Assembly (NCBI GenBank): GCA_029265615.1
Contig: JAJUIB010000012.1
Span: forward strand, 1-64,000
Length of the DNA: 64,000 nucleotides
DNA from: Spirochaetota bacterium
GTDB lineage: Bacteria > Spirochaetota > Spirochaetia > Treponematales > Rectinemataceae
Reading direction: 5' to 3'
The number at the start of each line of letters is the position of its first letter. Positions within the stretch are counted from its first letter, which is position 1. Of this stretch, positions 50,421 through 57,489 are shown piece after piece. The notes beneath the pieces were generated by a model. That model worked only from the letters and a program-made list of their open reading frames with translations. It was not told where the DNA came from and did no database searches. Both the position numbers and the translations under genes were made by a program.

Positions 50421-52172
50421 ATGAAAGAGCAGCTCATCGTCAAGAACCTTCCCTTCATCAAAATCCTCCCCGCCTGGGCCCAGGAGCTCTCCTACAAGTA
50501 CTGCTCGAAAACCGCGAACCTCTACATCGTCCACGGCAACATCCGCGACTTTCTCCCGCACAAGATGAACGAGGGCGAGTTCATGTTCGTGAAGATCCAG
50601 GAATACGTGTCCGAGGTACTCTTCGGAAACCGCGACGTGATCGTCTTCTATGACCGCTCAAGCGGCGTCTCATTCTGCACACCCGAGATGCGAAAGGAAT
50701 ACCTCAAGACGATGAAGGAGCGCCATCCCGACGCAGGCGAGGGCGAGTTCCTTTCCAACGAGCCCCTTGAGGCCTTCGCCCTCCTCGAGGAGTATTTCCT
50801 CCTCCAGATACCGCAAAAAAAGCGCATCGTCCTCATCGCCGACTACGCCGAGACTCTCGCTCCCGCAAGCGACGTCGCGCGGCTTTCCGAGGAAGATCGC
50901 TACTGCTTTGTCACCCTGAACCGCTGGTCGCACGAACCCGTGTTCACCCGCGGCGATGTGTCGATCATCCTCCTCACGGAGAATCTTGCGGACCTAAATC
51001 CTCGCATCGTCGCAAGCCCGAGCACGGTGAAGGTCGAGATTCCCATCCCCGACGAAGGCGTGCGCGCGCAGTTTTTGCGGTTTCTCGAACGGCGGAACAC
51101 CCTCCTCCTTGACAAGGGACTCTCCTGCGAGCAGGTCGCCGCCGTCGCGAGCGGCCTCAACCTCATGAACCTAAACCGCCTCGCCGCGGAGAGCTGGCAG
51201 GAAGACCGCCCCATTTCGATGGACTATCTCCGCGAAAAAAAGAAAGAGATCATCGAGGGCGAGGCGGCAGGTCTCCTTGAGTTCCTCGATACGGATCACG
51301 ACCTCTCGTATGTCTCCGGCCATGACTTCGTGAAGCGACGCCTCAAAAACGCAACCCGGGCGATCAAGCAGGGGAGGCTCGACGTCCTCCCGATGGGCTA
51401 CCTTATCGCGGGTCCCGTCGGCACGGGCAAAAGCTTCCTTGTCTCCGCCTTTGCCGGCGAGATCGGCGTCCCCATGGTAAAATTCCGCAACTTCCGTTCA
51501 AAGTGGCAGGGTGTCACCGAATCGAACCTCGAAAAGGTGCTCACCATACTCAAGGCGATGGCGCCCGTCGCCGTGATGATCGACGAAGCGGACGCCTTCC
51601 TCGGCGACCGGAACCAGGAGGGCGATTCGGGCGTCTCGAACCGCGTTTTTTCGCAGATCGCGAGCTTCATGGGGAACACGGAGTACCGGGGCAAGATCAT
51701 CTGGTTTCTCATAACCTGCCGCCCCGACCTTCTTCCCATCGACCTCAAGCGCCAGGGGCGGGCGGAGGAGCACCTTGCCCTCTTCTACCCCGAGTCCGAC
51801 GAGGAGAAGATCGCGCTTTTCGACACGCTCGTCCGAAAACTCGACCTCTCAATCCGCAAATTCCCCGTTTCCGAGCTTCTCAAAAAGTTCCGCCACGAGT
51901 TTTCGGGCGCTGATCTCGAAGCCGTCCTCATCCGCGCGAAATTCCGCGCCGCGATGGAGGGCAGAACCTTCGTCACACGCGAGGACATGGAGGAGACGAT
52001 GAACGACTTCGTCCCTCCCGCCTATCCGCACGAAATAGAGCTCCAGAACCTCGTCGCGGTCCTCGAATGCACCTCGAAGGAAATGGTGCCGAAGCGGTTC
52101 CAGAACCTCGACCGCACGAAACTCGTCCGTGACATCAGGGAACTCAAGGCCCTCCTCGGGGAACGCGAGTGA
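50421..52172 (+). CDS. AAA+ ATPase (Ycf46/ClpX-unrelated, classic AAA type)
   Basis: 583 residues. The C-terminal half is a classic AAA module: Walker A GPVGTGKS (331-338), Walker B VAVMIDEADAF, an arginine-bearing second region of homology (LITCRPDLLPIDLKRQGRAE), and an AAA lid (FSGADLEAVLIRAKF). The N-terminal half (about 1-290) looks like a degenerate AAA domain, the arrangement in Ycf46-like proteins; it lacks a Walker A. There is no protease or transmembrane region, so it is likely a remodelling ATPase of unknown target. A GGGGGA lies before the ATG. It is coupled to the GNAT gene by a GTGA overlap. Confidence 0.85.
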   Translation: MKEQLIVKNLPFIKILPAWAQELSYKYCSKTANLYIVHGNIRDFLPHKMNEGEFMFVKIQEYVSEVLFGNRDVIVFYDRSSGVSFCTPEMRKEYLKTMKERHPDAGEGEFLSNEPLEAFALLEEYFLLQIPQKKRIVLIADYAETLAPASDVARLSEEDRYCFVTLNRWSHEPVFTRGDVSIILLTENLADLNPRIVASPSTVKVEIPIPDEGVRAQFLRFLERRNTLLLDKGLSCEQVAAVASGLNLMNLNRLAAESWQEDRPISMDYLREKKKEIIEGEAAGLLEFLDTDHDLSYVSGHDFVKRRLKNATRAIKQGRLDVLPMGYLIAGPVGTGKSFLVSAFAGEIGVPMVKFRNFRSKWQGVTESNLEKVLTILKAMAPVAVMIDEADAFLGDRNQEGDSGVSNRVFSQIASFMGNTEYRGKIIWFLITCRPDLLPIDLKRQGRAEEHLALFYPESDEEKIALFDTLVRKLDLSIRKFPVSELLKKFRHEFSGADLEAVLIRAKFRAAMEGRTFVTREDMEETMNDFVPPAYPHEIELQNLVAVLECTSKEMVPKRFQNLDRTKLVRDIRELKALLGERE

Positions 52173-52846
52173 GGATGCACGGCGCCTATGGAGTTCCCGA
52201 GGGGCTATCGCCCCTCCTCGCTGCGCAGCGCGACGCCGCGGCGGATTTCGCTGGTCGAGCGTTTTTGTCCGACCCGCTCTACCTAGCGCTCGAAGCAGAC
52301 CCCGCGGCTCGGGCCACGCTCTGCCGCGAGGTGTCGCGCCTTTTTTGCCGCTACTGCCTTCGCTACGGCCTAGCCTTCAGGGCCCCCGCCGCGCCGGCTG
52401 AGCCCGAGGCACTCCTCCTTGCCCTTCCTCCTGAGGAATACGATCTCAGCCTTCCCAAACTCCTGCGCTCAGGCGCAGCGCGTCTCCTTGCACGGGTGGG
52501 TGCACGACGGCTCATGCGGCTACGCCCCGTCGAGCGAACCGCGGACCGAGCTCACGCCGAAAACGTGCGGGGGCCGCACTGGTATCTCCTCTTTCTCGCC
52601 GTCGCCCCCGAACGCCAGGGACGAGGGCTCGCCTCTTCGCTTCTTCGGCCCTTTCTCGACGCGCACGACAGGGCTGGGGAGGCCGTTTACCTCGACACCC
52701 AAAACCCGGACAATGTGCGTCTGTACCGTCGCTACGGCTTTACGCTCATCTCTGAGCGCCCGGTACCCGAACTGGGAGAGCTCATCCACTACTCGATGCT
52801 CAGACCTCCGCGATCCTCGGCGCTAAGCGAAACGAGAAACTCGTAG
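52169..52846 (+). CDS. GNAT-family N-acetyltransferase
   Basis: 225 residues. The acetyl-CoA-binding block HWYLLFLAVAPERQGRGLAS (motif A, V.P..QG.G) and the motif B-like VYLDTQNPDNVRLYRRYGF identify a GNAT acyltransferase. The substrate is unknown. GTG 52169 overlaps the ATPase stop by four bases; ATG 52175 is the alternative. The last 58 bases overlap the 3' end of the convergent membrane-protein gene at 52789-53727. Coupling to the AAA+ ATPase suggests a functional pair, but no known system was recognised. Confidence 0.88.
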   Translation: MRMHGAYGVPEGLSPLLAAQRDAAADFAGRAFLSDPLYLALEADPAARATLCREVSRLFCRYCLRYGLAFRAPAAPAEPEALLLALPPEEYDLSLPKLLRSGAARLLARVGARRLMRLRPVERTADRAHAENVRGPHWYLLFLAVAPERQGRGLASSLLRPFLDAHDRAGEAVYLDTQNPDNVRLYRRYGFTLISERPVPELGELIHYSMLRPPRSSALSETRNS

Positions 52847-53727
52847 CACAGACGCGTAAGCCGCCTGCAATCCTCGGGGCTGGTATAATAGCCGCCGCCC
52901 GAAGTCGCCTGCCGTAGCACCACCGTCCCGTACTCGCCCTCCCCGCCCGGCTCGATTTCGAAGCCCCGGGCGCGGATTCCGCAGGCGCGCCTATACGAAG
53001 GCCCCAATCGACCTTTCGTGAGGATGACTGCGTAGAGGTAGGGAACCTCGCCGTTCGGCCCCTTGTTGACCGCCGCCTGAAGCTGGATGCCGACAAAATC
53101 CTCGAAAGGCCTCTTAAGCTCGAGCATGAGCCGCAGGTCCTCCGGAATGTCGCGGCCCGCCGGATCCTTGTCAAAGCGGAGATAGGGAACGAGCGCGACC
53201 CCCTGGGGCCAAGGCTCCTCGAGCGCCGCCTTGAAGGAAGGTAGCTTGAAATCTATGTCCTTCGGAAGGAATATGCGCACCCGGCCAAAGAACAGCGCGG
53301 GAACGAGAAACACGAGGCCGTAGCCTGCCGCGAAAACGAGGTCCTCGCGCTCAAGCGCAAGCCCGACTACGAGCGCAAGAGCGGCAAGAGCGGCGAAGGG
53401 CACGGCGAGGGATGCGATGCTCGGCGACCGCGCCTTGCGGCGGAGCTTGCGCGAAGTTCGAAGGCTCTCGTCGAGTCGGTCGAGCTCCGCCATGGAAACG
53501 GGCCGCCACTCTTCAAGGCCCTGATCCTCGGGACGGTTCGTCGCGGGACGGAGCATGAGGGGGAACCAGCCCAGGACAGCGAGCGCAGGGCCGAGAAGCC
53601 GCAAAGGACCCTGGAACGCAAGATCGAGTCCCGCGCCTGCGGTGAAAAGCCCTGCGGCAAGGACGATACGCGACGCAAGACCGAGCGGAAAAAACCGGAA
53701 TTCGCGATCGGAGGCTCCACCGTCCAT
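52789..53727 (-). CDS. Membrane protein of the ACHX-repeat/radical SAM operon
   Basis: 312 residues. There are two pairs of transmembrane segments (about 14-60: SRIVLAAGLFTAGAGLDLAF, LLGPALAVLGWFPLML; about 110-155: VPFAALAALALVVGLALE, AAGYGLVFLVPALFF), a short charged loop between, and a C-terminal soluble domain (about 160-312) with ELKRPFEDFVGIQLQAAVN and GGGYYTSPED. No family was recognised. ATG 53727 has GGAGG seven bases upstream; ATG 53733 overlaps the radical SAM stop. Its place directly after the radical SAM gene, in the same transcript, suggests a role in transport, assembly or sensing of the modified protein (inference). Its 3' end overlaps the GNAT gene by 58 bases. Confidence 0.72.
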   Translation of the reverse strand: MDGGASDREFRFFPLGLASRIVLAAGLFTAGAGLDLAFQGPLRLLGPALAVLGWFPLMLRPATNRPEDQGLEEWRPVSMAELDRLDESLRTSRKLRRKARSPSIASLAVPFAALAALALVVGLALEREDLVFAAGYGLVFLVPALFFGRVRIFLPKDIDFKLPSFKAALEEPWPQGVALVPYLRFDKDPAGRDIPEDLRLMLELKRPFEDFVGIQLQAAVNKGPNGEVPYLYAVILTKGRLGPSYRRACGIRARGFEIEPGGEGEYGTVVLRQATSGGGYYTSPEDCRRLTRLCYEFLVSLSAEDRGGLSIE

Positions 53728-53729
53728 TA

Positions 53730-55115
53730 TCATTCCTCCCTCGGGGCGATGCGGCATGATGCGAGTTCGCCATACCCCGCGTAGCGCCAATAGAGGGGGC
53801 AGGCGCCCTGGCAGGCGACAAAGGCCGCGCATCCAGCGCAGGCCGCAGGTGCCTCGTGCTTCAGTTTGAGGTGCCGCGCACGCTCGGAAAACCAGATATT
53901 GGCGAAGGGCCGTGTAAGCACATTGCCAAGCCCCTCGGGCCAGGATGAGCAGGGTAGCACCTCGCCCGTCGGGCTCACATGGAGGAGACCATCGGCCGCA
54001 GCGCAACTCTTGTTGCCAAGGCCGCGGGCGACGGGGTTGTACAGGCCGTAAGGCGTCGGGCTGTACCAGAGAAAATCGATGCCCTCTGTGTGAGCCGCTC
54101 GCCGGACTGAATCAACGATGACGCCGATCTCGGCGTAGGGCACAAAGAGCCCTCTGTCGGCAAGCCCGCGCCCCGAGGGGATGAAGAGGTTCATGGAAAA
54201 GCGCCTCACGCCGAGCGTGCGTAAAAACGCGGGCAATGTGGCAAGTGCTGAACGATTAACCGCCGTGACCGTCGTGTTGGTCTGGACGGCGATGCCCGCC
54301 TCGAGAAGGGAACGGATACCCGCGACGGTCCTCGAAAAGGCACCTTTGACGCCTGCAAGGTCGTCGTGCGTCGCAGGGTCGGCACTTTCAAGGCTGACCT
54401 GCGCCGTATCGAATCCCGCCTCTTTGAGCGAGCGGGCCCGCTCGGGCGTCGCAAGGCTCCCATTGGTTATCAGGTTGATCCTGAGGCCACGCCCGACCGC
54501 ATAGGCGCCAAGCTCTTCGAGATCGGAGCGAAGAAGCGGCTCACCACCCGTGAAAGAAAAGAACGGAATTTTCGCCTCGTCACGAAAAATATCGATGACG
54601 CGCTTAGCCTCGGCGGTTGAGAGCTCCCGGGTTTCGCAAGCACCGCTGGGGACAGAGCCTTCGCCGGCTGCACCGCAACCTTCGCCGGCTGCACCGCAGC
54701 CGGCGTAGCAGAACCGGCAGCGTTCGTTGCACCGGTAGGTGAGTGCGAGTTCGCCGAGCACGGGAAGGCGCGTGAAGTCGAAGTCGTAGGGGACGCGTTC
54801 AAGCGATACAGCCCTACCTGCGCTTGCGGCCTCAAGCTCGGCAAAAAAACGCTCAAGGTCCCCGACTTTCGCCGCATCCATGCCTGGGATGGTAGCGAGC
54901 GAGCCGCCTTTCTCGAGAAAGGCAAGGACATCCGCACCGGAACCGCCCAGCTTATACACGCGGTTCGGCGGCAGGATGAGTACGGCATCTGCGCTACGGA
55001 AAAGCATCCAAGGCTTGAGCGCGCGGTAGATGCTCTCAAGCCGGAGAAGCCTCGCCGCGAGCGCACCATCCGTGATGCCGGAAGCAAAGCGATCCCGGCA
55101 AAAGAGACCGCGCAT
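53730..55115 (-). CDS. Radical SAM/SPASM peptide-modifying enzyme with possible PqqD-like N-domain
   Basis: 461 residues. The first 100 include ILPPNRVYKLGGSGADVLAF, then DLERFFAEL, resembling a PqqD-like RiPP-recognition domain. Radical SAM CxxxCxxC is C129-C133-C136 in LTYRCNERCRFCYAGC, with extra Cys at 140, 147 and 160 between duplicated CGAAGEG units; GGEPL lies at 190-194. The C-terminal SPASM region (about 350-455) has many Cys (SCAAADG, VLPCSSW, ACAGCAAFVACQGACPLY). Its ATG overlaps the stop of the ACHX-repeat protein (TGATG), so it is almost certainly dedicated to that substrate. The most similar described systems are the ACGX and CXXX-repeat radical SAM pairs (from memory). Expected chemistry: thioether or other Cys/His/Ala crosslinks. 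Confidence 0.85.
   Translation of the reverse strand: MRGLFCRDRFASGITDGALAARLLRLESIYRALKPWMLFRSADAVLILPPNRVYKLGGSGADVLAFLEKGGSLATIPGMDAAKVGDLERFFAELEAASAGRAVSLERVPYDFDFTRLPVLGELALTYRCNERCRFCYAGCGAAGEGCGAAGEGSVPSGACETRELSTAEAKRVIDIFRDEAKIPFFSFTGGEPLLRSDLEELGAYAVGRGLRINLITNGSLATPERARSLKEAGFDTAQVSLESADPATHDDLAGVKGAFSRTVAGIRSLLEAGIAVQTNTTVTAVNRSALATLPAFLRTLGVRRFSMNLFIPSGRGLADRGLFVPYAEIGVIVDSVRRAAHTEGIDFLWYSPTPYGLYNPVARGLGNKSCAAADGLLHVSPTGEVLPCSSWPEGLGNVLTRPFANIWFSERARHLKLKHEAPAACAGCAAFVACQGACPLYWRYAGYGELASCRIAPREE
54658..54699. repeat. 21-bp direct repeat inside the radical SAM gene
   Basis: Two adjacent copies (54658-54678, 54679-54699; 20 of 21 bases identical) encode CGAAGEG twice, directly after the cluster motif CxxxCxxC and CYAGC. 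An in-frame duplication that adds a Cys. Confidence 0.85.
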
Positions 55116-56872
55116 CAGTGCGCACCGCCAGAAACACAAGCGGAGTGGCAGGCGGAATGGCAGGCCGAGTGACAAGCTGAATGGCAGGCGGAATGGCAGG
55201 CGTCGTGACAGGCATTATGGCAGGCCGAATAACACGCATCGATCGTACCGCCAGGAGGGGAAAAACATCCAGAAAAACACGCGGCACTCCGCATGAACTC
55301 CGCATAGCCCGTCGAAAATTCGCGCGGAAGCGCAAGGAGCGCATGCCGTTCCGGGTGGCGCTGGATGGCTACATAGCCTGCCCAATATCCCCAGGTGGAA
55401 TCCTGCGCGCCGGTGCGCGGCGCGGTGGCCGTAGGCAGGCCCAGACTGTGCTCGCTCCCTGTCTCAGCCGCCTCCGCGGCACGTTCGGCTTCATCGAGCT
55501 TTGCAAGTCGCCTCCGGTAGTAGGCCTTCGTCGCCTCGATGTCGCAGTCCCAGACCTTCTCCTGGAGTCTTTTGATCGCCTCTTCAAAAAAATCGGCCAT
55601 GAGCCCCGAAAGGACACGCCCTTCTGCGTCGAAGGCCGCGAGAAAGGCCTCTTCGTAGTCGCTTTCCGCACGGGCCGCCGATTGCAGTTCGATGCGCAAG
55701 GGATTTTCCTCGACGAGGTGCGCAATTCCCTGTCGCTCAAGTCCTTCGAGCATGATCGCGACGATACGGGGGAGCGGCAGCTCCATAAGGAGGGCGACCT
55801 CGATCGGATGGAGGTTTTCGGCCACCTTGCCGGGCACCTGGTATGAGCCAACAAGCAGCCGCGGAGGCATCCACGAGTCGCCCGCCCAGCTGAGCTCGCT
55901 GACAAGGCGCCGCTTTTTCCGAAATGCGGAAAGCCGGGCCATATAGAGCGCAAGTGCCGCTCCAGCAAGGCTCAGGATGAGGAGCGCCGCGACAAGCGGC
56001 TGTTTCCCCAGGGTTCGCGCAGGCCTAGCGCCCGACGGCGACGAAGGCGCGCCGAGCGCCTTCGAGTCTCCGACAGACGCCTCGTCCACATGCCGCTCGC
56101 CGCTCCCAGGGCCTTTTTCCGCAGCGGCGAGCGTCGCTCCACCGAGATCGAGGTAGCCCTCCGGAAAATAGATAGCCAGCCGCTGCCCCTGCCGGGCCGA
56201 AGGGGCCTTTTGAAAAAAAAGTGCGGTGAGATAGTAGCGCTCGTCGGCACCAGGGCTACCGTACCAATCGATTTTATTTTCAGCGTTGACATCCACCGTG
56301 TGCCGTTCGGTGAGGAGGGGAATAGCGGCCTTTGTGTCGGCATCGAGGGTCGCCCCGGCAGTAGGCCGCGGCAGGACGAGGCGCACGGTGCGCGAAACAA
56401 GGGCTTCGTCCCAGGCGGGCGGGCTCCAGTCGAAATACACAAGGCGTTCGTTTGAGGCGGCGACGGTCGTTCCGATGAGGCGTGATGCGGCGAAATCGGC
56501 CCCATAGGTGAGTGTGTAGTAGGCGGTGCCGGAAAAGCCCTTGCCGCCTGCGAGAAGAACGTCAAAACGGCCTGATCCGAGCCGCCTGATCGACAGGGGG
56601 TGGCGCTTCCCATCGGGAAGATCCGCAAAACAGCGTTCGGCGTCCCAGACGGGCTCGAAGGGGAGACCTTCGTAGTAAAAACCATGCATCGCCCCGCCCG
56701 AAGCATGCCATTCAAGCCGTTCGGCAATGGCCGCCTTGCCATCTGGCCTGAGGACAAGGGTGATGTCGGAACGCACAAGGTCGGCTGAAAGGGCGGCGAC
56801 TTTTTCCGCCGCCGCAAGGGCGAGAATTGCCGCGACAAGGACGGCGGACAGGGTACGACCTGGATGCTTCAT
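55115..56872 (-). CDS. Membrane-anchored protein with nine C-terminal Ala-Cys-X-X repeats
   Basis: 585 residues: a signal peptide (1-28), a beta-rich DUF2207-like extracytoplasmic domain (about 30-245), a linker, one transmembrane segment (292-313), and a cytoplasmic helical part (about 330-470) with an EVALLMELPLPRIVAIMLEG segment. The last 40 residues are nine units of A-C-x-x (546-581): ACYS, ACHN, ACHD, five ACHS, ACVS, preceded by two more Cys (ACFSGC). The topology puts the repeats on the cytoplasmic side, where the radical SAM enzyme works. The repeats show synonymous codon differences, so the protein sequence is maintained. The ATG overlaps the upstream stop by four bases and its own stop overlaps the radical SAM ATG. 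Function is unknown. Confidence 0.82.
   Translation of the reverse strand: MKHPGRTLSAVLVAAILALAAAEKVAALSADLVRSDITLVLRPDGKAAIAERLEWHASGGAMHGFYYEGLPFEPVWDAERCFADLPDGKRHPLSIRRLGSGRFDVLLAGGKGFSGTAYYTLTYGADFAASRLIGTTVAASNERLVYFDWSPPAWDEALVSRTVRLVLPRPTAGATLDADTKAAIPLLTERHTVDVNAENKIDWYGSPGADERYYLTALFFQKAPSARQGQRLAIYFPEGYLDLGGATLAAAEKGPGSGERHVDEASVGDSKALGAPSSPSGARPARTLGKQPLVAALLILSLAGAALALYMARLSAFRKKRRLVSELSWAGDSWMPPRLLVGSYQVPGKVAENLHPIEVALLMELPLPRIVAIMLEGLERQGIAHLVEENPLRIELQSAARAESDYEEAFLAAFDAEGRVLSGLMADFFEEAIKRLQEKVWDCDIEATKAYYRRRLAKLDEAERAAEAAETGSEHSLGLPTATAPRTGAQDSTWGYWAGYVAIQRHPERHALLALPREFSTGYAEFMRSAACFSGCFSPPGGTIDACYSACHNACHDACHSACHSACHSACHSACHSACVSGGAH
55130..55237. repeat. Nine 12-bp coding repeats (ACHX units)
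   Basis: Nine adjacent 12-base units, each a minus-strand Ala-Cys-His/Tyr/Val-X tetrapeptide. Units differ by synonymous changes (GCC/GCT, TGC/TGT, CAT/CAC, TCC/TCA/TCG), so this is an old, selected protein repeat and not a recent slippage product or a CRISPR. Confidence 0.95.
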
Positions 56873-57489
56873 GAAAGTTCCTCTTCTGCGGCAACGCGGT
56901 CGACAAAGGTGGGAAGGCCTGAAACACGCTCGCGGGCGCGAGCGACTAAGGTGGCGCGCTCGCGGAGTTCTGCGGCGACACGGGCTGCGGCATCGGGAAA
57001 GGGGTGGGTGTCAGCCTGACCGAAGCGGCGCTCGGTCGCAGATTCGTCTGCCTCGTGGAGCCAGGCGTCGATGAGCGCCTGCGCCTCTTCGAGCGCGGCG
57101 TCGGCTTCTGGGTCGCGGGACTGCGTAGCCAGAGCGGCCTCAAGATACCGCCCCGCTTCGAGGACGAGGAGGTCGCGCGCCGCGGCGACTTCAGGCTCGA
57201 CGATCCTAAGGGCAGAAAGGCGCCGCCTCGTGAGCGACGCGGCCTCAAGCTCCACGCGATTTTGCCGCGCCATGGCGGCTTCCGCCTCGCGAGCAGCGGC
57301 GCGCGGGCCGATCCCGGATACAAGGCCGAGGCCGAAGGCGGCAAGTGGCGCGGCAAGCACCGCAAAAGCCACAAGACCGGGCCCGAGTCCGAGCCCCCCG
57401 ACTACAAGCCCCGCAAGCGGCCCCGCGAGGAGGCTACCTATGCCAAGCGGCGAACGAAGGTAGTGCCGGACAAATTCACCGAGCGTCAT
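56869..57489 (-). CDS. Small membrane protein, first gene of the ACHX-repeat operon
   Basis: 206 residues. Two hydrophobic segments (about 15-57, SLLAGPLAGLVVGGLGLG and then FAVLAAPLAAFGLGLVSGI) are followed by a long Ala/Glu/Arg-rich cytoplasmic helix or coiled coil (about 65-206). No family was recognised. Its TGA overlaps the next ATG by four bases (ATGA), so the repeat protein is translationally coupled to it. The 137-base gap to pgeF lacks an obvious promoter, so the operon may be read through from pgeF or further upstream. It might anchor or scaffold the repeat protein (inference). Confidence 0.7.
   Translation of the reverse strand: MTLGEFVRHYLRSPLGIGSLLAGPLAGLVVGGLGLGPGLVAFAVLAAPLAAFGLGLVSGIGPRAAAREAEAAMARQNRVELEAASLTRRRLSALRIVEPEVAAARDLLVLEAGRYLEAALATQSRDPEADAALEEAQALIDAWLHEADESATERRFGQADTHPFPDAAARVAAELRERATLVARARERVSGLPTFVDRVAAEEELS

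Follow-up and report, generated by a model that had tools for sequence, protein, structure and literature searches.

Four coupled genes on the minus strand of the window, i.e., the whole 64,000-nucleotide stretch of DNA analysed here, run from position 57489 to position 52789 and raise the question of whether the radical SAM/SPASM enzyme encoded by the third of them acts on the Ala-Cys-X-X repeat that ends the membrane protein encoded by the second (hereafter the carrier; Table 1). According to the reading of the open reading frames, gene 1 runs 4 bp into the carrier start (ATGA at 56872-56869), the stop of the carrier is overlapped in TGATG (55117-55113) by the start of the enzyme gene, and gene 4, with its most likely start at 53733, shares a 4-bp overlap (ATGA) with the enzyme stop. 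The joined genes had been described in an initial annotation made from this DNA, together with the nine-unit tail on a 585-residue protein with a signal peptide and one transmembrane (TM) segment, and with a radical SAM/SPASM gene that carries CxxxCxxC (C129xxxC133xxC136) and overlaps the stop of the repeat gene; all these features are confirmed. A plus-strand gene for a GNAT acetyltransferase-like protein (52169-52846) converges with gene 4 (52789-53733), with an overlap of 58 bases between the two 3' ends.

Table 1. Positions, in the window, of the four genes and of the parts of their products.
Feature	Position	Strand	Description and basis
Gene 1, 206 aa	56869..57489	-	ORF; N-terminal hydrophobic (TM) hairpin, then predicted soluble part
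Carrier, 585 aa	55115..56872	-	Signal peptide, ectodomain, one TM, cytoplasmic domain, ACHX tail (predicted)
Carrier signal peptide, residues ~1-28	56789..56872	-	Hydropathy; model helix 6-23; by inspection
Carrier extracytoplasmic DUF2207-like beta domain, residues ~29-240	56153..56788	-	Model fold matches; PF09972 in homologues
Carrier single TM segment, residues 293-311	55940..55996	-	Kyte-Doolittle 2.39
Carrier cytoplasmic domain, TIGR04222-like, residues ~329-475	55448..55888	-	Model; TIGR04222 in homologues
Tail, nine Ala-Cys-X-X units, residues 546-581	55130..55237	-	First unit ACYS, ACHS x5, last ACVS
Radical SAM/SPASM enzyme, 461 aa	53730..55115	-	PF04055, PF13186; start codon overlaps carrier stop
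Enzyme N-terminal PqqD-like (RRE-like) region, residues ~30-95	54831..55028	-	PF05402 in homologues; placed by inspection
Enzyme SPASM domain, residues ~371-443	53787..54005	-	PF13186 at residues 371-429; six invariant Cys
Gene 4, ~314 aa	52789..53733	-	Model: four N-terminal TM helices and cytoplasmic alpha/beta domain

Sequence pattern and selection of the tail

In the window carrier, the C-terminal stretch (ACHS)x5-ACVS-GGAH closes the array of nine AC units that begins with ACYS. A strict DNA pattern for ACHxACHxACH matches this array alone in the 2.7-Mb genome to which the window belongs, and the reversed control pattern has zero matches in the same genome. Among 81 tails, 72 consist of nine units and the other 9 of eight, and ACVS is the final unit in every one (81/81). 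Cys is kept in all 720 units of these tails, Ala in 709 and His in 602. The number of units is accordingly fixed at 8-9, and the variable repeat number expected in the initial annotation was not borne out.

Among 59 homologues, the median identity to the window carrier reaches 94% in the tail, compared with 43% in the body; in relatives with carrier bodies that are 47-66% identical, the tail is almost letter-identical. Within single arrays, pairs of ACHS units differ at 1,822 of the 3,656 codons compared, and every difference is synonymous, which rules out recent DNA duplication as the origin of the tail. Chance ACHX runs are set apart by the control pattern and the linkage tests. The exclusively synonymous divergence, the conservation of the tail and the fixed number of units argue for selection on both the amino-acid pattern and its length, i.e., as judged from these comparisons, the tail is conserved by extreme purifying selection on the protein pattern.

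Distribution and conserved gene set

Of 59 relatives, 32 have a homologue of the carrier. When 84,980 named genomes were scanned for the conserved ACHSACHS sequence, 450 stretches were recovered, and 388 of them encode a relative of the carrier. The best 80 of these 388 loci come from Spirochaetota, Myxococcales, Elusimicrobia, Omnitrophota, Nitrospinota, Sumerlaeota, Armatimonadota, Acidobacteria, Aminicenantes, Lentisphaerae and others, with the organism names taken from the titles of records that are mostly metagenome-assembled genomes, such that single placements may be binning errors. The carrier system spans at least ten bacterial phyla, across which a nearly unchanging tail of 32-36 residues recurs; it is not the lineage-private expansion that had been considered a possible refutation. 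Within phyla the system is patchy, as indicated by matches to the ACHxACHxACH pattern in 9 of 297 genomes of one phylum (that of locus L117) and 11 of 284 genomes of another (that of L097). The C-terminal tails of the ACVS type that were examined with enough flanking DNA are located on carrier homologues, and none on short precursors.

When the loci were searched with profiles of the four proteins, almost every one of the 80 named loci with sufficient DNA showed the order carrier-enzyme-gene 4 on one strand. The predicted core of the system consists of the carrier, the enzyme and the multi-TM protein encoded by gene 4. This set is present, e.g., in Rectinema subterraneum (L077), a cultivable environmental bacterium. 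Of 100 loci, among which some places are counted twice, 66 have a homologue of gene 1 upstream of the carrier, and none was found in the loci of this set from Elusimicrobia/Omnitrophota or other phyla; gene 1 is an accessory component, seen solely beside spirochaete-type carriers. Clustering of flanking ORFs across phyla detected no further universal component, only lineage-level synteny. The four-gene unit of the initial annotation is coupled in the window, but the universal unit comprises three genes; the failure of co-conservation that was to count against the proposal did not occur for the carrier, the enzyme and gene 4.

Several loci depart from the common organization. One locus (L104, 3830-10637) contains the tandem carrier-enzyme-gene 4-carrier-gene 4, where one enzyme apparently serves two carriers. 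Another (L097) encodes a carrier and gene 4 without an enzyme, and the same genome (G420) has the full set on a different contig (L115). Two carriers are therefore combined with one enzyme in two genomes, G422 (with L104) and G420 (L097 plus L115). L161/L164 suggest the gene order carrier-gene 4-enzyme, and in G675 and G530 the carrier stands alone, with the enzyme and gene 4 on another contig.

Each of 20 tail-bearing genomes had a single match to a profile of the enzyme, at 423-652 bits, and nothing above 300 bits was obtained in 24 other genomes, including near relatives without the carrier and three genomes (G932, G959 and G951) in which the pattern matches are unrelated runs and there is no carrier. 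Fisher's test gives p ~6e-13 for this co-occurrence, a value that is overstated because the genomes are related and hand-chosen. The dedicated enzyme postulated in the initial annotation holds up in this comparison, even where the genes are unlinked. Over 195 genomes of the phylum of locus L125, the enzyme profile led to one new genome (G1010), in which the adjoining gene bears the tail; the window's own genome has one array and one enzyme of the family. The mirror distances correlate with r 0.88 for the carrier and the enzyme and with r 0.935 for the carrier and gene 4, values to which common descent contributes alongside any interaction.

Predicted architecture of the core proteins

The window enzyme matches PF04055 (3.8e-26) and PF13186 (8.9e-9) above the gathering scores. 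In 32 homologues, C129, C133 and C136 as well as C371, C389, C426, C429, C435 and C439 are invariant, and the six cysteines of the latter set are laid out as GX4C...CX2CX5CX3C, which we take to be a SPASM signature. By these matches, the enzyme is assigned to the radical SAM superfamily with a SPASM domain. The PqqD domain (PF05402), a search for which had been suggested in the initial annotation, was matched weakly in 11 of the 32 homologues (best E 0.0014) and not in the window enzyme. Among the matches listed, none of the curated NCBIfam peptide-maturase models was reached at its cut-off; the best sub-threshold matches are the haem-pathway enzymes AhbD (152.5 bits vs a cut-off of 500) and NirJ2, so that the enzyme may have a small-molecule or cofactor role. 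A short contig (L171, 1-2763) carries an adjacent pair that consists of a full radical SAM/SPASM enzyme (246 bits to the present family) and a look-alike seemingly without CxxxCxxC, and has no ACHX carrier.

Searches of Pfam and NCBIfam gave no meaningful family match for gene 1, gene 4 or the window carrier, which is unmatched by PF09972/PF20990 and by TIGR04222. In 60 carrier homologues, DUF2207 (PF09972) is matched in 19 (best 9.7e-9) and TIGR04222 in 4 (best 3.9e-5, whole protein). In the model, the beta-rich ectodomain (residues 28-237) matches ribophorin I (OST1) at Z 15.5 and rmsd 2.8, with 182 residues aligned, as well as the N-domains of M1 aminopeptidases (Z 12-14); the shared fold shows no function. 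These matches and models identify the carrier as a putative remote DUF2207/TIGR04222-type protein with a ribophorin-I/M1-aminopeptidase-like ectodomain. For the cytoplasmic domain, the model has mostly pLDDT > 90 from about residue 350, and the tail is modelled as a helix (residues 544-579) at low confidence (pLDDT mostly 40-50).

After the signal peptide, carriers have either one TM segment, as in the window, or three, as in the long carriers described below. Across the 60 members, the mean number of K+R is 4.3 after the TM segment vs 2.3 before it, which suggests that the C-terminus is in the cytoplasm. The tail is thus predicted to be located where a SAM- and Fe-S-dependent enzyme works. 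A periplasmic tail, as proposed for TIGR04222 proteins, is disfavoured by the TM count and by the positive side after the TM segment.

The gene 4 protein is modelled with a pLDDT of 91, and its fold has no convincing match among the chains compared (Z <= 6.5). A partnership with the carrier is more likely for it than one with the enzyme alone, given the higher correlation (r 0.935) and the extra carriers in L104 and L097, which bring gene 4 and no second enzyme. As a counterpoint, in G675 and G530 gene 4 stays with the enzyme.

Proposed maturation of the tail, alternatives and related systems

We propose that the carrier, the enzyme and gene 4 probably constitute a dedicated three-component protein-maturation system in which the tail is modified in place by the enzyme. 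The tail is very likely to be the substrate of the enzyme; thioether chemistry on the tail has a somewhat less than even chance, and a metal or redox role of the tail is suggested more tentatively still. The central idea of the initial annotation, namely that the enzyme acts on the Cys tail at the cytoplasmic end of the carrier, is strongly supported by the co-conservation, the co-occurrence of unlinked genes and the selection on the tail.

The carrier would be inserted such that the DUF2207-like domain is outside, and the cytoplasmic domain and the ACHX tail are inside. The enzyme could dock on the tail via its PqqD/RRE-like N-terminal region and, probably, also via the cytoplasmic domain of the carrier, and would then modify the tail units by radical chemistry. 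SPASM enzymes with Cys-rich substrates often form thioethers, as established for sactipeptides and ranthipeptides, and the likeliest product would be a Cys-thioether crosslink, formed inside one C-H-X-A-C step or from one step to the next, with the final ACVS unit capping the series; the radical chemistry could also yield other products. One crosslink in each C-H-X-A-C step would explain the invariant Cys and Ala, the single His per step and the replacement of His by Val in the last unit. Gene 4 is expected to act together with the carrier, as a component that presents the tail or one that uses the modified product. This product would remain attached to the membrane protein, forming a fixed-length array on the inner side of the cytoplasmic membrane, and most plausibly would bind a metal or a redox group. 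In its most specific and rather doubtful form, this proposal casts the crosslinked poly-(Ala-Cys-His-X) array of fixed length as a membrane-protein cofactor of a new kind, a metal or electron relay that is coupled to the outside DUF2207 domain and is conserved in at least ten phyla as a mostly single-copy system and not as an antibiotic. The fixed unit number and the occurrence as a single copy in most genomes point to a function in physiology as opposed to a diversifying toxin.

The tail could instead be an unmodified metal-binding CXXXC/His helix (for Cu(I), Zn or Fe) similar to copper-storage helices, with the enzyme acting elsewhere in the pathway, e.g., in the building or insertion of a cofactor. 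Cys and His at a four-residue period would form a stripe along the low-confidence model helix, and haem enzymes are the best sub-threshold matches of the enzyme; nevertheless, one enzyme in each tail-bearing genome and none in genomes without the tail is more than a shared pathway needs, and the tail keeps a fixed unit number and a near-invariant Ala, which is not a metal ligand and whose invariance needs another reason, so that we consider this alternative unlikely. Still less likely is the installation by the enzyme of an Fe-S cluster, a haem-like or another prosthetic group on the tail, with CXXXCH as the attachment sites. Although the CHXACH repeats contain CX3CH, and AhbD and NirJ are the nearest named enzymes, these matches are far below cut-off (152.5 bits vs 500), and the tail is predicted to be cytoplasmic, whereas c-type haem is attached outside the cytoplasm.

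The ACGX (TIGR04340) and CXXX-repeat (TIGR04117) systems also combine a radical SAM/SPASM enzyme with four-residue Cys repeats; their substrate is a short peptide, in contrast to the ACHX tail, which sits on a membrane protein of 500-1000 residues. The name of the rSAM_vs_C_rich family (TIGR04463) likewise implies a Cys-rich protein with a radical SAM/SPASM enzyme next to it. Membership of the present system in one of these known families, to which the initial annotation had linked it in the case of ACGX and CXXX, is highly improbable and was rejected: ACHX superficially resembles ACGX and CXXX, and there is a fragment match to TIGR04463, but the enzyme scores 65.3 bits vs a cut-off of 400 for TIGR04340 and 23.7 bits vs 525 for TIGR04463, consistent with a separate enzyme family, and TIGR04117 leaves the window carrier unmatched and has a best E of 0.05 among 60 carriers. 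In 199 genomes of the phylum of locus L117, TIGR04463 gave nothing over its cut-off. The possibility that the tail is a tandem-repeat artefact, i.e., a GC-rich 12-base repeat read in one frame, can be practically dismissed. Such tandem-DNA look-alikes do exist (ACLS or ACPS runs in L130 and L133), and ACHX pattern matches occur without a carrier in G932, G959 and G951; in the true tails, however, synonymous variation at half of the compared codons and conservation across phyla refute this reading for the family. The ACLS/ACPS runs (L130, 6279-7354; L133, 4366-4545) are found in GC-rich genomes without an adjoining carrier or enzyme.

In-place maturation of a membrane-protein tail, the reading that we prefer, has its nearest described counterpart in TIGR04222 membrane proteins that end in Cys-rich C-terminal tails and have been proposed as substrates of MNIO (DUF692) enzymes (Antoine et al., 2025; PMC12452194). 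Both cases involve an integral membrane protein with a large domain and a Cys C-terminal tail as the proposed in-place substrate of a RiPP-type enzyme. However, the ACHX enzyme is a radical SAM/SPASM protein and not an MNIO, and the ACHX tail is invariant, of fixed length and predicted to be cytoplasmic, whereas the TIGR04222 tails are loose Gly/Ser/Cys sequences predicted to be periplasmic. The association with the enzyme is strict for ACHX carriers and loose for the TIGR04222 proteins, with MNIO absent from 490 of the 1372 genomes in that study (PMC12452194). DUF2207 proteins (PF09972/PF20990), e.g., SMU.243 of S. mutans, have a large extracellular N-domain, an intracellular C-terminus and a low-complexity tail (PMC10457818). 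The carriers, 19/60 of which match PF09972, are predicted to share the outside N-domain and the inside C-terminus, but the window carrier differs in its single TM segment, in the ACHX units in place of a Gly/Ser stretch and in the dedicated radical enzyme. In the TvgAB poly-cyclopropylglycine RiPP, one SPASM enzyme modifies a four-residue repeat non-processively, with a loss of 2 Da (PMC9062424); here, too, one radical SAM/SPASM enzyme is combined with a repeated four-residue motif, although TvgAB has a short precursor peptide with a TVGG repeat and no Cys. RiPPs in the strict sense have a separate short precursor with a cleaved leader, whereas the ACHX tail forms the C-terminal end of a membrane protein of 585 residues.

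A literature search, with subscription journals mostly outside its scope, found no paper on ACHX tails or on DUF2207 with radical SAM, and the copies of Pfam and NCBIfam searched contain no named family for the enzyme, the carrier or gene 4. The system is real, uncatalogued and widely distributed, and most likely represents radical-SAM peptide maturation with a permanent membrane-protein tail as the substrate. Should the tail prove to be modified by the enzyme, the reach of radical SAM peptide chemistry would extend beyond short precursors to a permanent cytoplasmic tail of a membrane protein, and the poorly understood DUF2207/TIGR04222 proteins would gain a testable function.

Diverged forms of the system were also identified. 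In a Spirochaetota family (f39; L126-L129, L134 and L135), the carriers are 919-1026 aa long, with ~360 extra residues, three TM segments and a tail of three ACV-capped ACHS blocks. The adjacent enzyme scores 440-458 bits, and no separate gene 4 was found at these loci; possibly, its function is built into the long carriers. In genome G431, a diverged carrier with a GGGCACACACAGCACACAGGG tail, ending in GGGCACACACAGCACACAGGGR, adjoins a diverged radical SAM enzyme (282 bits). These two forms indicate that the layout of a membrane carrier, a Cys tail and a radical SAM/SPASM enzyme is broader, and probably older, than the ACHX motif. At locus L170 (3985-7042), a carrier and a radical SAM/SPASM enzyme, both diverged, lie side by side; the carrier has a CACACACAGCACACA tail, and the pair is a sister system with another Cys tail.
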